Positions 16,334-24,794 of a DNA stretch of 33,449 nucleotides are shown here, piece by piece. The notes beneath the pieces were generated by a model. It searched no databases. It was not told the origin of the DNA and saw nothing but the letters and a program-made list of their open reading frames with translations. The stretch spans positions 1-33,449 of the forward strand of contig CANREO010000004.1 of the NCBI GenBank assembly GCA_947629635.1. Reading direction: 5' to 3'. Each line of letters begins with the position of its first letter. Position 1 is the first letter of the stretch. The stretch is from an uncultured Clostridia bacterium. Its GTDB lineage: Bacteria > Bacillota > Clostridia > Christensenellales > CAG-917. The position numbers and the translations under genes are program-made.

Positions 16334-17458
16334 TCAATCCGCAGGAAGATAATTTATCTCTTGAGATACGTTTTTTTGCGTGGAAAATTTTATTGCGCCG
16401 TCCTTGTCGACGGTGAGTGTGACGGTGCCGTTGTTGTCGGTGCGGTACAACGTCATACTGCGCGCGCTCAGGCGTGCGAGAGTTTCCATAGTCGGGTGCC
16501 CGTGCTTCAAACCGCAACTTATTACGGCATATTCGCAATTTACCGCATCCAAAAACTCGTCAAGCGAGGATGTTGCGCTTCCGTGATGAGCAACTTTCAG
16601 GACATCGCAATCTATATAGCCTATTCGTTGGGCGATCAAGGGTTCGTTTTTGCTATTGCTGTCGCCCGTAAAAACTATGCGGCGCCCGTTGTATTCAAGT
16701 ATTCCCACCGGAGAGATCGCATTTAGCGCCTCGGCGTCGCCTAGCCCCTTTTGCGCGTAATATTCCTCTGTCGGGCAGTAGAAAGTCAACCTGTATGTAT
16801 CCGTAGCGATTATTATGCCGTTTGTGTGCTCATCGGGATCCATGTTGAGATGAATGGTGCAATTCGGTTCGGATAGCGCGCTTATAAAGAATTCCGCATA
16901 TACGTCCGTAGACACGACGTCGGGGTCGGTGAACATAGACAACTTTTTGCTGTCAAGTTCGGCAATGTAGTTTTTGAGTTGATCTTTATCCGATACTGCG
17001 AGGATGTTCGGCATATAAATGTTGCGCACATCGTATTTGTCTATCACCGCGTCAAGATAACCTACATGGTCGGAATCGGTGTGAGTAAGCATAAGGTGGT
17101 CTATCGTATCGTCGGCGTTGAGTTTGTCGATGGCGGCGATCGCCTCTTTCTCCGACGAGCCCTTTGAAGAGCCGCAATCTATCACCATGTCTGAGCCGTC
17201 GGGAAATTCTATGTAAATACAGTCGCCTTGTCCCACGTCTACGAAACAGACGGTAAGCACGCCGTCACCCTTGGCAAGAGGTTCGCCGAGTACGAGCGAT
17301 ATAAGCTTATTCCAAGTTTCGGGGAAGGCGAAGTATATCACCGCAATCGAGATCGCAATGACCAGTATCACCGCTATGACCGCGATCAGCGCCGCAAGCG
17401 GATATTTTTTTGCCGTCTTTTCGGCGGCGGATCTGACTTTGGAAGATGCCTTGGACAT
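16334..17458 (-). CDS. Membrane-anchored MBL-fold hydrolase, ComEC/Rec2-like C-terminal domain
   Basis: N-terminal TM segment, then VCFVDVGQGDCIYIEFPDG, LMLTHTDSDHVGYLDAV, IVFTGDSNSKNE, DVLKVAHHGSATSS. Confidence 0.88.
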   Translation of the reverse strand: MSKASSKVRSAAEKTAKKYPLAALIAVIAVILVIAISIAVIYFAFPETWNKLISLVLGEPLAKGDGVLTVCFVDVGQGDCIYIEFPDGSDMVIDCGSSKGSSEKEAIAAIDKLNADDTIDHLMLTHTDSDHVGYLDAVIDKYDVRNIYMPNILAVSDKDQLKNYIAELDSKKLSMFTDPDVVSTDVYAEFFISALSEPNCTIHLNMDPDEHTNGIIIATDTYRLTFYCPTEEYYAQKGLGDAEALNAISPVGILEYNGRRIVFTGDSNSKNEPLIAQRIGYIDCDVLKVAHHGSATSSLDEFLDAVNCEYAVISCGLKHGHPTMETLARLSARSMTLYRTDNNGTVTLTVDKDGAIKFSTQKNVSQEINYLPAD

Positions 17459-19803: not shown

Positions 19804-20361
19804 ATGCAGGATGAAGTCCAACTCATATTAAAGGCTCAGGCGGGCGACGCACAAGCGATGAACGACGTGCTTATAAGTTTTGCGCCGCTTGTCAAGTCAA
19901 TATCTCGCGCCTTCCATATTATAGGCGCGGACAGGGAGGATCTGTCGCAGATAGGCATGATCGGGCTTATGAACGCAGTGCGCACCTATAGGACGGACGG
20001 CGCGGCAAAATTTAAAACTTACGCCACAAAATGCGTGCGCAACATCATGTTGGACGCCGTGCGCAAGCAAAAATCGGCGGTGCAGACGGTCAATTTGGAC
20101 GAATCGGCAGAGGATGTGTCATCCGAGCCCGAAAAACTTTATCTCGACAGCGAGGCGCAAAGCATACTGAACGACACCATCGCCGCCGCTCTCAACGACA
20201 CGGAAAAAGAGGTGTTGGCGCTCTATCTTGACGCGATGTCCTATGCCGAGATATCCAAAAAGCTAGGAATGACAAAGAAAAAGGTGGACAACACCATCTA
20301 CAGCCTGCGCAAAAAAATCAAAAAAATATTGGAAATCGGCCGTCAAGCGCGAGAAATTTGA
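19804..20361 (+). CDS. sigH: RNA polymerase sigma factor, SigH (Spo0H)-like
   Basis: IGADREDLSQIGMIGLMNAVRTYRTDGAAKFKTYATKCVRNIMLDAVRKQ; region 4 NDTEKEVLALYLDAMSYAEISKKLGMTKKKVDNTI; mrnC-rlmB-sigH synteny. Confidence 0.87.
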   Translation: MQDEVQLILKAQAGDAQAMNDVLISFAPLVKSISRAFHIIGADREDLSQIGMIGLMNAVRTYRTDGAAKFKTYATKCVRNIMLDAVRKQKSAVQTVNLDESAEDVSSEPEKLYLDSEAQSILNDTIAAALNDTEKEVLALYLDAMSYAEISKKLGMTKKKVDNTIYSLRKKIKKILEIGRQAREI

Positions 20362-22024: not shown

Positions 22025-22576
22025 TCAATTGAACAGTTTATCCAGCATTTCTTTCACCCAGGACTTGTATATGAGCTTTTCTCCGTTTTCGGAAGAGGGC
22101 GTGAAGCACAGCGGCGGAAATGCAACGCACCACCAGTTTTGCCCCTTGCCGCTGCCGAGGTTTATGATGACGGCGTCATAGCGCCCTTCGGGGAATGTAT
22201 ATTCGTCGTATCTTTTTTCGGGGAAATATTCGTTGCTGTACACTATGTCGGAAGTATAATCGAATCCGTTTGCCTTAAGCGTGTCGTCAGCGATCGCGCA
22301 TAGCCGAGATTTTACGTTTATAAGCCTGTTCGCAGCCTCCCTCTTTGACGAACATCCCTCGAGCGCGTATTGAAGATACTCTGTGACGGCGTCACGTACT
22401 TTAAGTTTGACGGATTGGTCGTCGGCGCTGTCAGAGTTTGCGCGTATGTGTATTCGGATGCAATTGTCGGCAAGTTCGCTTCCGCCACGATCGCAACCGC
22501 ACAAGGATGATGCGAGAAATATGCACAAGGCGGCGATGATAAATACGGAGATTTTTTTAATATGTAAATTTTTCAT
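22025..22576 (-). CDS. spoIIR: Stage II sporulation protein R
   Basis: MKNLHIKKISVFIIAALCIFLASSLCGC..., NCIRIHIRANSDSADDQSVKLKVRDAVTEYL, GKGQNWWCVAFPPLCF. Start set at 22576; the track start at 22822 runs into sleB. Confidence 0.9.
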   Translation of the reverse strand: MKNLHIKKISVFIIAALCIFLASSLCGCDRGGSELADNCIRIHIRANSDSADDQSVKLKVRDAVTEYLQYALEGCSSKREAANRLINVKSRLCAIADDTLKANGFDYTSDIVYSNEYFPEKRYDEYTFPEGRYDAVIINLGSGKGQNWWCVAFPPLCFTPSSENGEKLIYKSWVKEMLDKLFN

Positions 22577-22582
22577 GATTTT

Positions 22583-22610
22583 ATTTTTGCCAAATTCAAG
22601 CAGGTTAAAC
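22583..22610 (-). promoter_or_regulatory. SigF-like promoter of spoIIR
   Basis: Minus strand GTTTA-14 nt-GGCAAAAAT, compatible with the SigF pattern GYWTA / GGnnAnAnT. Confidence 0.5.
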
Positions 22611-22611
22611 T

Positions 22612-22640
22612 GCATAAAAGCAAAATATACATGCAAACTA
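22612..22640 (+). promoter_or_regulatory. SigG-like promoter of sleB
   Basis: GCATA (22612-22616), 17 nt, CAAACTA (22634-22640), close to GnATR / CATnnTA. Confidence 0.5.
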
Positions 22641-22655
22641 GCCGTGAGGTGAAAA

Positions 22656-23366
22656 ATGCGATCGAGTTTAATTAAGGATTCAACAATCGTGAAGATACTT
22701 CCGGCGTTTTTGGCGATCGTGCTTGCGGCCGTAATTTTTGTATACTGCATTCCTTCCGACTGCAGTGTGGCCGAGGCAGCCACGTTGAAGCAAGGTTCGA
22801 CCGGCGCCGTCGTCAAAACCATGCAGACAAAACTTATAAATTGGGGGTATCTGAGCGGAAAGGCCGATGGAATTTTCGGATCTAAAACAAAAGCCGCGGT
22901 GATTTATTTTCAAAAGCGTAACGGACTTGTCGCGGATGGAATAGTCGGCACAAAGACGGCTCAGGCTATGGGGCTTAAATTGTCCGGCACTACGACGACA
23001 AACGGCGGCGGCACGTCGTCTACGGAATTGAATTTGCTTGCGCGCGTCGTTTACGGCGAAGCAAGAGGAGAGCCCTACACGGGGCAAGTGGCCGTAGCGG
23101 CGGTTGTGCTTAACAGAGTAAAGAGTTCGAGTTTTCCCAACACCGTATCGGGAGTGATTTATCAGGCCGGCGCATTTGACTGCGTGGCGGATGGGCAGAT
23201 AAATATGACTCCCAATCAAAACGCGATCAACGCTGCTCGCGATGCTCTGAACGGATGGGACCCGACTTATGGCTGCCTGTTTTATTACAATCCCCGTACG
23301 GCTACAAGCAAGTGGATGCTGTCTCGAACCGTCAAATTGAAGATAGGCAATCATGCATTTTGTTGA
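22656..23366 (+). CDS. sleB: Spore cortex-lytic enzyme SleB
   Basis: Peptidoglycan-binding repeat (GSTGAVVKTMQTKLINWGYLSGKADGIFGSKTKAAVIYFQ) plus hydrolase domain (LLARVVYGEARGEPYTGQVAVAAVVLNRV...CLFYYNP); ypeB follows. Confidence 0.94.
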   Translation: MRSSLIKDSTIVKILPAFLAIVLAAVIFVYCIPSDCSVAEAATLKQGSTGAVVKTMQTKLINWGYLSGKADGIFGSKTKAAVIYFQKRNGLVADGIVGTKTAQAMGLKLSGTTTTNGGGTSSTELNLLARVVYGEARGEPYTGQVAVAAVVLNRVKSSSFPNTVSGVIYQAGAFDCVADGQINMTPNQNAINAARDALNGWDPTYGCLFYYNPRTATSKWMLSRTVKLKIGNHAFC

Positions 23367-23381
23367 TAAAGAGGTGAATAT

Positions 23382-24794
23382 ATGAGCAATAAAAAAACCA
23401 ACTGCGTAAAAACGCAGGACACAAAAAAGACCAAGAGACAACGCAATTCGCGAGTGGCAAAGACTGCGGTGCTCGGCACTGTGCTCGGCCTTTGCGCTAG
23501 CGCGATAGTAGGGCTTTCGGTAGCGTTATATTTTGCCGACAAAACGGTCGAGACGCACGAAAGTTACCAAAGGCAAATGGACGCCGTGTATTTCAGAGCG
23601 TATTATGACCTGATCGAGGGCGCCAACGATATGGGCGTCATGCTGAAGAAGTTGGGCGTTTCCAATTCGCCGACCATGCAACAGTCAATGCTTTATGAAG
23701 TATGGAGCGCTGCAAACCTTGCCGAAAACTCGCTCGGCATGTTCGAAAGTCAAGACGACGGAATTTTGCGGGCGCAAAAATTCGTAAATCAACTTGGAGA
23801 CTATTCTCATGCGCTTGCGCTGAGAGTGGCCGCCGGCAAACCGCTTACGGAAGAGGAGAGAGAAAGGCTCTCGAAACTTGCCGAGGTGGCGTCTGTATAT
23901 CAACGCGCGTTGACGGAGTTTGGCAAGCAACTTGAGGATGGGAATACCTTTATGGGCGAAGATGGAGCATTGAACAATTTTACGGCGGCATTTTCGGAAT
24001 TTTCTCAACCCGATTTCGCCTATCCCGAAATGATTTACGACGGGCCGTTTTCGGACGCTCTCGAAAACAAACAGCTTGTCGGGATGGGCGGAAAGGATAT
24101 TACGGCAGAGCGCGGCGAAGAATTGTTGAATGACTATTTGAGCGCGTACGAAGTGAGCGACGTCGCCTATATCGGCGAAGGAGAGGGCGACATACCCACT
24201 TACAACTTTATGTTGACGGCAGACGGCGCGCCGGCGTTTGCGCAAATTTGCAAGAGGGGAGGAATGTTGATCTCATACAATGTAAACATCGACGACGTCG
24301 CTTCATCAAAAGCCGTGAGGCAGGACGCCGGCCCCACATGCCAACAAAATGCCTTGGCGTTTGCAAGCAAGTTGGGTTTTGACAATATGCAGGTAGTCTG
24401 GTCATCTTCCGCGCATGGAGAATGCGTAGTCAATCTTGCGCCTGTTCAGGAAGGCGTTATACTCTATTCCGATCTTGTAAAAGTCAAACTCAGAGAGGAG
24501 GGCAGCCGCGTCATCGGACTTGACGCCACACACTATGCCTTCAACCATAGAGAGAGAAAACTCGACGTTCCCACAATAACTGCCGAACAAGCAAAACAAA
24601 ATTTGTCCATCCCGGCAATATCGGAAGGCAGGCTTGCCTTGATACCGTTGCGCGGCACTAAAGAGACGTTGACTTATGAGTTCGAATGTGAACAAGACGG
24701 CACTTATTTTGTATATATAGACGCGCTGAGCGGAGACGAAGCGAATATACTGTACGTCATCGACGACGAGGCCTCGGGCATGAGAACGATATGA
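23382..24794 (+). CDS. ypeB: Germination protein YpeB
   Basis: N-terminal TM and YpeB-type domains; immediately downstream of sleB; SD AGAGGTG. Confidence 0.9.
   Translation: MSNKKTNCVKTQDTKKTKRQRNSRVAKTAVLGTVLGLCASAIVGLSVALYFADKTVETHESYQRQMDAVYFRAYYDLIEGANDMGVMLKKLGVSNSPTMQQSMLYEVWSAANLAENSLGMFESQDDGILRAQKFVNQLGDYSHALALRVAAGKPLTEEERERLSKLAEVASVYQRALTEFGKQLEDGNTFMGEDGALNNFTAAFSEFSQPDFAYPEMIYDGPFSDALENKQLVGMGGKDITAERGEELLNDYLSAYEVSDVAYIGEGEGDIPTYNFMLTADGAPAFAQICKRGGMLISYNVNIDDVASSKAVRQDAGPTCQQNALAFASKLGFDNMQVVWSSSAHGECVVNLAPVQEGVILYSDLVKVKLREEGSRVIGLDATHYAFNHRERKLDVPTITAEQAKQNLSIPAISEGRLALIPLRGTKETLTYEFECEQDGTYFVYIDALSGDEANILYVIDDEASGMRTI

Follow-up and report, generated by a model that had tools for sequence, protein, structure and literature searches.

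A SigF-type promoter six nucleotides from the spoIIR start codon and a predicted leaderless spoIIR mRNA in uncultured Clostridia

SpoIIR is the forespore signal that triggers pro-SigE processing (PMC3789822); its gene is a core checkpoint gene, the timing of which couples the two cells. The usual way to find genes with leaderless mRNAs is to look for a sigma-70 -10 box close to the start codon, and such genes are considered rare in Firmicutes. The locus described here raises the question of whether a developmental sigma factor of an endospore former can also place the 5' end of an mRNA at the start codon. The window (the whole stretch of DNA that was analysed, 33,449 nt) is contig C4 of a draft genome (1.09 Mb, 85% complete) of an uncultured Clostridia bacterium. 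The features of the spoIIR locus are as follows.

22025 to 22576, minus strand: spoIIR, 183 amino acids (PF09551 and TIGR02837), with the predicted mRNA 5' end at or adjoining the A of the ATG at 22576
22577 to 22582, minus strand: AAAATC, the 6 nt separating the -10 element from the ATG, with a pyrimidine at -1 and without an SD sequence
22583 to 22591, minus strand: spoIIR -10 element GGCAAAAAT, from the sequence; aligns with GGCAAYAAT and GTCAATAAT of relatives
22606 to 22610, minus strand: spoIIR -35 element GTTTA, SigF type, from the sequence and a motif scan

The open reading frame scores 148.8 bits against Pfam PF09551 (E=1.5e-43, cut-off 25) and 150.3 bits against NCBIfam TIGR02837 (3.7e-44), which is 1.6 bits short of the equivalog cut-off of 151.9. 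Judged by homology it is a genuine spoIIR, with a predicted function in pro-SigE processing. The N-terminal part of the protein (22494-22576, minus strand) and its counterparts in relatives carry a near-invariant cysteine at about residue 28, following a hydrophobic stretch (LCGC, LTAC, LCAC), which resembles a lipoprotein signal.

Direct reading of the minus strand from 22610 to 22574 gives GTTTA-ACCTGCTTGAATTT-GGCAAAAAT-AAAATC-ATG, where ACCTGCTTGAATTT is a 14-nt spacer between the two promoter elements, the last T of the -10 lies 7 nt 5' of the start codon, and the ATG occupies 22576-22574. With a SigF-type promoter taken as a -35 GYWTA and a -10 GGnnAnAnT 14-16 nt apart, the window's GTTTA-N14-GGCAAAAAT belongs to this class. 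It is not a typical member in every position: GGCAAAAAT has an A where most relatives show C or T, and B. subtilis shows less preference for a spacer of 14 nt (PMC5942855). The composite GYWTA-N14-GGCAANANT-N6-ATG has a single match in the window, precisely at 22574-22610, and none in 100 dinucleotide shuffles of the window. The preliminary description had proposed that GTTTA-14-GGCAAAAAT on the minus strand fits the SigF pattern, and that the ATG follows exactly 6 nt past the -10 without an SD; the uniqueness of the composite agrees with the former, and the reading of the sequence bears out the latter. A near-palindrome spanning the -35, GCAGTTTAACCTGC, was not seen in the 30 relatives first read, and folding of the 5' end of the spoIIR mRNA showed nothing special.

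The arrangement was then compared among relatives; those taken from named records are uncultured Clostridia and include MAGs that carry the names Christensenella sp. UBA1260 and Candidatus Limadaptatus. Thirty relatives were read first, followed by 80 GTDB loci, which together with the window's own locus make 81; the motif and start criteria behind the counts were chosen partly after viewing the genus alignment. Among the 81 loci screened, the conserved core promoter of spoIIR occurs in two architectures. In 27 of them the SigF-like -10 ends exactly 6 nt 5' of ATG or GTG, a figure made up of 26 machine-scored loci and one (L127) that was scored instead on a GTG directly after the -10. The -10 variants at these loci are GGCAAYAAT, GTCAATAAT, GGCAATACT and similar sequences. 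A SigF-like -35 (GTTTA-, GTATA- or GATTA-like, N13-15) and a -1 pyrimidine are present in all 26 machine-scored loci, and an SD is missing from 25 of them. In about 20 other loci the same core promoter lies 13-41 nt 5' of the start, mostly with an SD, and most of the motif-bearing leadered loci also retain both the -35 and the -10. A further 30 of the 81 loci had no match to the regular expression used and were left unclassified. At seven loci (L136, L147, L151, L153, L154, L155 and L160) GAGG begins at the seventh nucleotide past the -10, and the predicted leader, 9-10 nt long, starts with the SD. Promoter identity, spacing and the lack of an SD can thus be read directly from the spoIIR sequences, as can their conservation: the check on upstream regions in relatives found the SigF-like motif and the 6-nt distance kept across the genus and beyond.

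On a spoIIR tree of 80 rows the leaderless label needs seven changes, six of which are forced by well-supported branches, and as few changes of architecture were obtained in 0 of 500 label shuffles. The loci with the leaderless layout form one large clade, which includes the window's genus, and two outside lineages (L156/L172 and L159/L162); reversions or returns are seen in the tree among Limadaptatus-like genomes. This layout would either have become established in the common ancestor of these uncultured Clostridia or have arisen repeatedly, and it appears to have interchanged with the SD-led form. Repeated switches between leaderless and minimal SD-led forms, with the promoter otherwise constant, provide a natural series for testing the contribution of leader and SD.

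The other side of the same intergenic region is occupied by a second sporulation promoter; spoIIR lies back to back with sleB-ypeB.

22612 to 22616, plus strand: GCATA, -35 element of the SigG-like promoter of sleB, which diverges from that of spoIIR; the two -35 elements stand back to back
22634 to 22640, plus strand: CAAACTA, SigG-like -10 element of sleB; CAAACTA or CACACTA recurs in relatives
22646 to 22655, plus strand: predicted 10-nt sleB leader GAGGTGAAAA, starting with the SD, from an inferred start site
22656 to 23366, plus strand: sleB, spore cortex-lytic enzyme (TIGR02869, 273.9 bits, above cut-off)
23382 to 24794, plus strand: ypeB (PF14620 and PF20769, above cut-off)

The sleB promoter reads GCATA-N17-CAAACTA and is followed by the SD GAGGTG; a GCATAAAA-like element is kept 5' of sleB in many relatives. 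Leadered sleB contrasts with spoIIR inside one intergenic region. Minimal leaders, with the predicted mRNA beginning exactly at the SD (GAGG), recur in the seven leadered spoIIR loci and in the window's sleB (22646).

Start sites at promoters of the sigma-70 family are usually found 6-7 nt past the last base of the -10. Given the fixed 6-nt distance, the pyrimidine at -1 and the A at +1, initiation at spoIIR is predicted at the A of the AUG. The bases at -1 and +1 are only consistent with a 5' end at the start codon, and the seven relatives with GAGG at +1 fit the same start-site rule. The reading that we consider very probable is that a SigF-type promoter drives spoIIR in the forespore and gives an mRNA that starts no more than a base or two from the A of the AUG, if not at this A itself, and that has neither a leader nor an SD. 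The SigF-type RNA polymerase would initiate behind a -10 whose end is 6 nt from the start codon, and a (70S) ribosome would bind the 5'-terminal AUG directly, as in other leaderless mRNAs, the translation of which is known to withstand kasugamycin. Dependence on SigF is presumed from the motif together with the control that SigF is known to exert on spoIIR (PMC3789822), and start site and translation mode are predictions of the same kind.

Several other readings of the locus have to be weighed. The consensus sequences of SigF and SigG overlap, SigG could read spoIIR too, and residual spoIIR transcription without SigF has been noted in C. difficile (PMC7438776). That SigG, or SigF and SigG together, would drive the gene rather than SigF alone is nevertheless unlikely: a G on the 5' side of the -10 (GGCAA, GTCAA) is a mark of SigF promoters (PMC3789822), gpr in these genomes has the CATAAT form, and in the known pathway SpoIIR has to act ahead of SigG. 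Somewhat less likely still is a real promoter with a minor product, where spoIIR is (also) expressed with a leader from a promoter further upstream. C. difficile spoIIR does retain SigF-independent expression (PMC3789822), and there are sigma-70-like matches in the upstream region, only weak ones, at 3 against 2.0 in shuffles. However, a transcript started upstream would still have no SD before the ATG at 22576, there is no nearby upstream start led by an SD, and the space 5' of spoIIR is occupied by the divergent sleB promoter. Nor would a fixed 6-nt distance be expected if a leadered form were doing the work.

The assignment of the start codon bears on the same distance. The spoIIR frame in the window is open far upstream of the ATG at 22576, and an in-frame ATG lies 39 nt 5' of it, at 22615, so a true start elsewhere would make the 6-nt distance incidental. 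We regard this as very improbable, since the ATG at 22615 also has no SD, lies within the promoter and is not common among relatives, whereas the N-terminus from 22576 is a good signal sequence and aligns with relatives from the same methionine. In two relatives (L133 and L172) the start is fixed, because an in-frame stop stands directly 5' of the leaderless start codon; in about ten loci a stop is reached before any in-frame start 5' of the assigned one, and among the nearest upstream in-frame starts listed only two have an SD, both of them distant. The search for an SD-led start further upstream, which could have overturned the leaderless reading of the preliminary description, thus left it in place. 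A chance resemblance in AT-rich intergenic DNA hardly deserves credence. Some elements of the motif are short and AT-rich, and the -10-N6-ATG part alone, with one match in the window, also has one in 13 of 100 shuffled windows; but the full composite is found in no shuffle, and chance is contradicted by the conservation of the arrangement at 27 spoIIR loci and at other spore genes.

The preferred reading, that of a leaderless transcript under SigF, implies that the genome has the sigma factor. A SigF gene (G000:C95) lies behind spoIIAB in the window's genome and scores 260 bits against TIGR02885, below its cut-off of 321. Only one gene of the SigF/SigG class is seen in this genome; a single forespore sigma factor was considered and rejected, as most near-complete genomes of the genus have two such genes. 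The lone gene is probably explained by the incompleteness of the draft.

Other spore genes of the genus show both layouts. Of 17 genus genomes, nearly all place a SigF-like -10 of yyaC 6 nt 5' of the ATG, with G011 deviating by one; at -1 there is mostly an A, and transcription may start a base or so upstream of the ATG. Among genes of SigG type, gpr has a CATAAT, CAAAAT, CATATT or CAATAAT box 6 nt 5' of ATG or GTG in 16 of 16 genus genomes, while spoIVB has a box ending in T 6 nt 5' of the ATG, with T at -1, in 11 genomes and an unclear one in G004 and G005. For spoIIIAA, a gene of SigE type, most of ten genomes have CATATAGT-like boxes about 5 nt 5' of an ATG that lacks an SD, and in several a stop lies two codons 5' of the ATG. 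An SD precedes sleB and spoVT (SigG type) as well as spoIVA (SigE type). A conserved element, TTGCAACCGTTTT, lies directly 5' of the gpr -35 in the genus (L101-L118).

Because sleB, spoVT and spoIVA are SD-led while genes of the same types look leaderless, the layout appears to be specific to the gene rather than to the sigma factor. The preliminary description had suggested that the leaderless layout extends to a forespore sigma factor. The promoters of spoIIR, yyaC, gpr and spoIVB support such an extension, but it is not special to the forespore: a forespore-specific rule was rejected, given that spoIIIAA looks leaderless and two SigG-type genes are SD-led. It is doubtful, although conceivable, that spoIIR, yyaC, gpr, spoIVB and spoIIIAA are kept leaderless as a built-in tier of sporulation control, differing from SD-led sleB, spoVT and spoIVA in translation mode, timing or compartment. 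Since PF00269 is almost missing, SASP genes could not serve as additional SigG targets: the family was found in only one genus genome (G004, among G000-G017 of genus g1), and the SASP protease gene gpr in nearly all. Its place in this clade may be taken by spore DNA-binding proteins that are divergent or of another kind.

Leaderless mRNAs made with alternative, sporulation-specific sigma factors have a precedent in Streptomyces coelicolor, with whiH (sigma WhiG) and sspA (Streptomyces SigF). To our knowledge, Streptomyces SigF is not an orthologue of endospore SigF. The transcription start of sspA coincides with the translation start by S1 mapping (PMC4282423), and whiH is leaderless under WhiG (PMC3160421). 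S. coelicolor differs in being an actinobacterium that forms exospores and in that leaderless genes are common there; they average 19% in Actinobacteria (PMC3160421). The SigF-dependent spoIIR of Bacillus and Clostridioides is the same forespore signal gene with the same class of -35 and -10. A literature search, largely of papers outside subscription, found no report of a leaderless spoIIR (Bacillus and Clostridioides included) and none of this layout in the clade described here. Only 15 potentially leaderless genes are listed for C. difficile in all, and 28 mRNAs with a leader under 10 nt for B. amyloliquefaciens (PMC4634765). The TA-led (Pribnow-type) leaderless genes of Zheng et al. 2011 likewise have a -10 about 12 bp 5' of the start codon and no SD; that survey, as it states itself, detects only sigma-70-like -10 boxes, and its leaderless genes in Firmicutes were concentrated in Lactobacillales and Mycoplasma (PMC3160421). 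Leaderless genes under sporulation sigma factors are thus already known from Streptomyces, to which a leaderless spoIIR of endospore formers would be an addition. This suggests that developmental sigma factors of endospore formers also make leaderless mRNAs, the start codons of which SD-reliant gene finders may misplace.

Candidate leaderless genes elsewhere were sought by motif. GGCAAYAMT-N6-ATG has about 3.5 occurrences in each genus genome, compared with about 0.2 for a reversed-pattern control, and recurs before spoIIR, yyaC and genes for Veg-family, 263-272-aa membrane and MazF-like proteins. The last three are not independent evidence, because they were found by the pattern itself. In the MazF-like gene (MEVKRGDLYYADLSP..., identified by eye) the SigF-like -10 is exactly 6 nt 5' of the ATG in several genus genomes (L257, L260, L267, L270, L272). 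The membrane protein, whose gene this pattern likewise marks as leaderless (L048, L050, L057, L255, L258, L263, L265, L269, L271), had no Pfam or NCBIfam match in the three loci L048, L050 and L057 and is a candidate new forespore protein. Vegetative-type boxes were counted in stretches sampled from the window's genome (G000, about 295 kb), G002 (400 kb) and G036/G051 (300 kb). A TAnnnT box exactly 6 nt 5' of the first ATG was counted 11 times in G000 (4.1 expected) and 13 times in G002 (5.5 expected), a modest excess when combined (24 seen, 9.6 expected, P=7e-5); sampled G036 showed no such excess. CATAnT at 6 nt showed no genome-wide enrichment, and leaderless genes of SigG type are therefore few. 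Within the window, vegetative-type TAAAAT and TATAAT boxes lie 6 nt 5' of SD-less ATGs at an ispE-like gene (530, plus strand) and at a gene at 17458 (minus strand). The window also encodes a divergent 185-aa SigH-like sigma factor (19804-20361, plus strand), which scores 102 bits against a SigH equivalog cut-off of 295.
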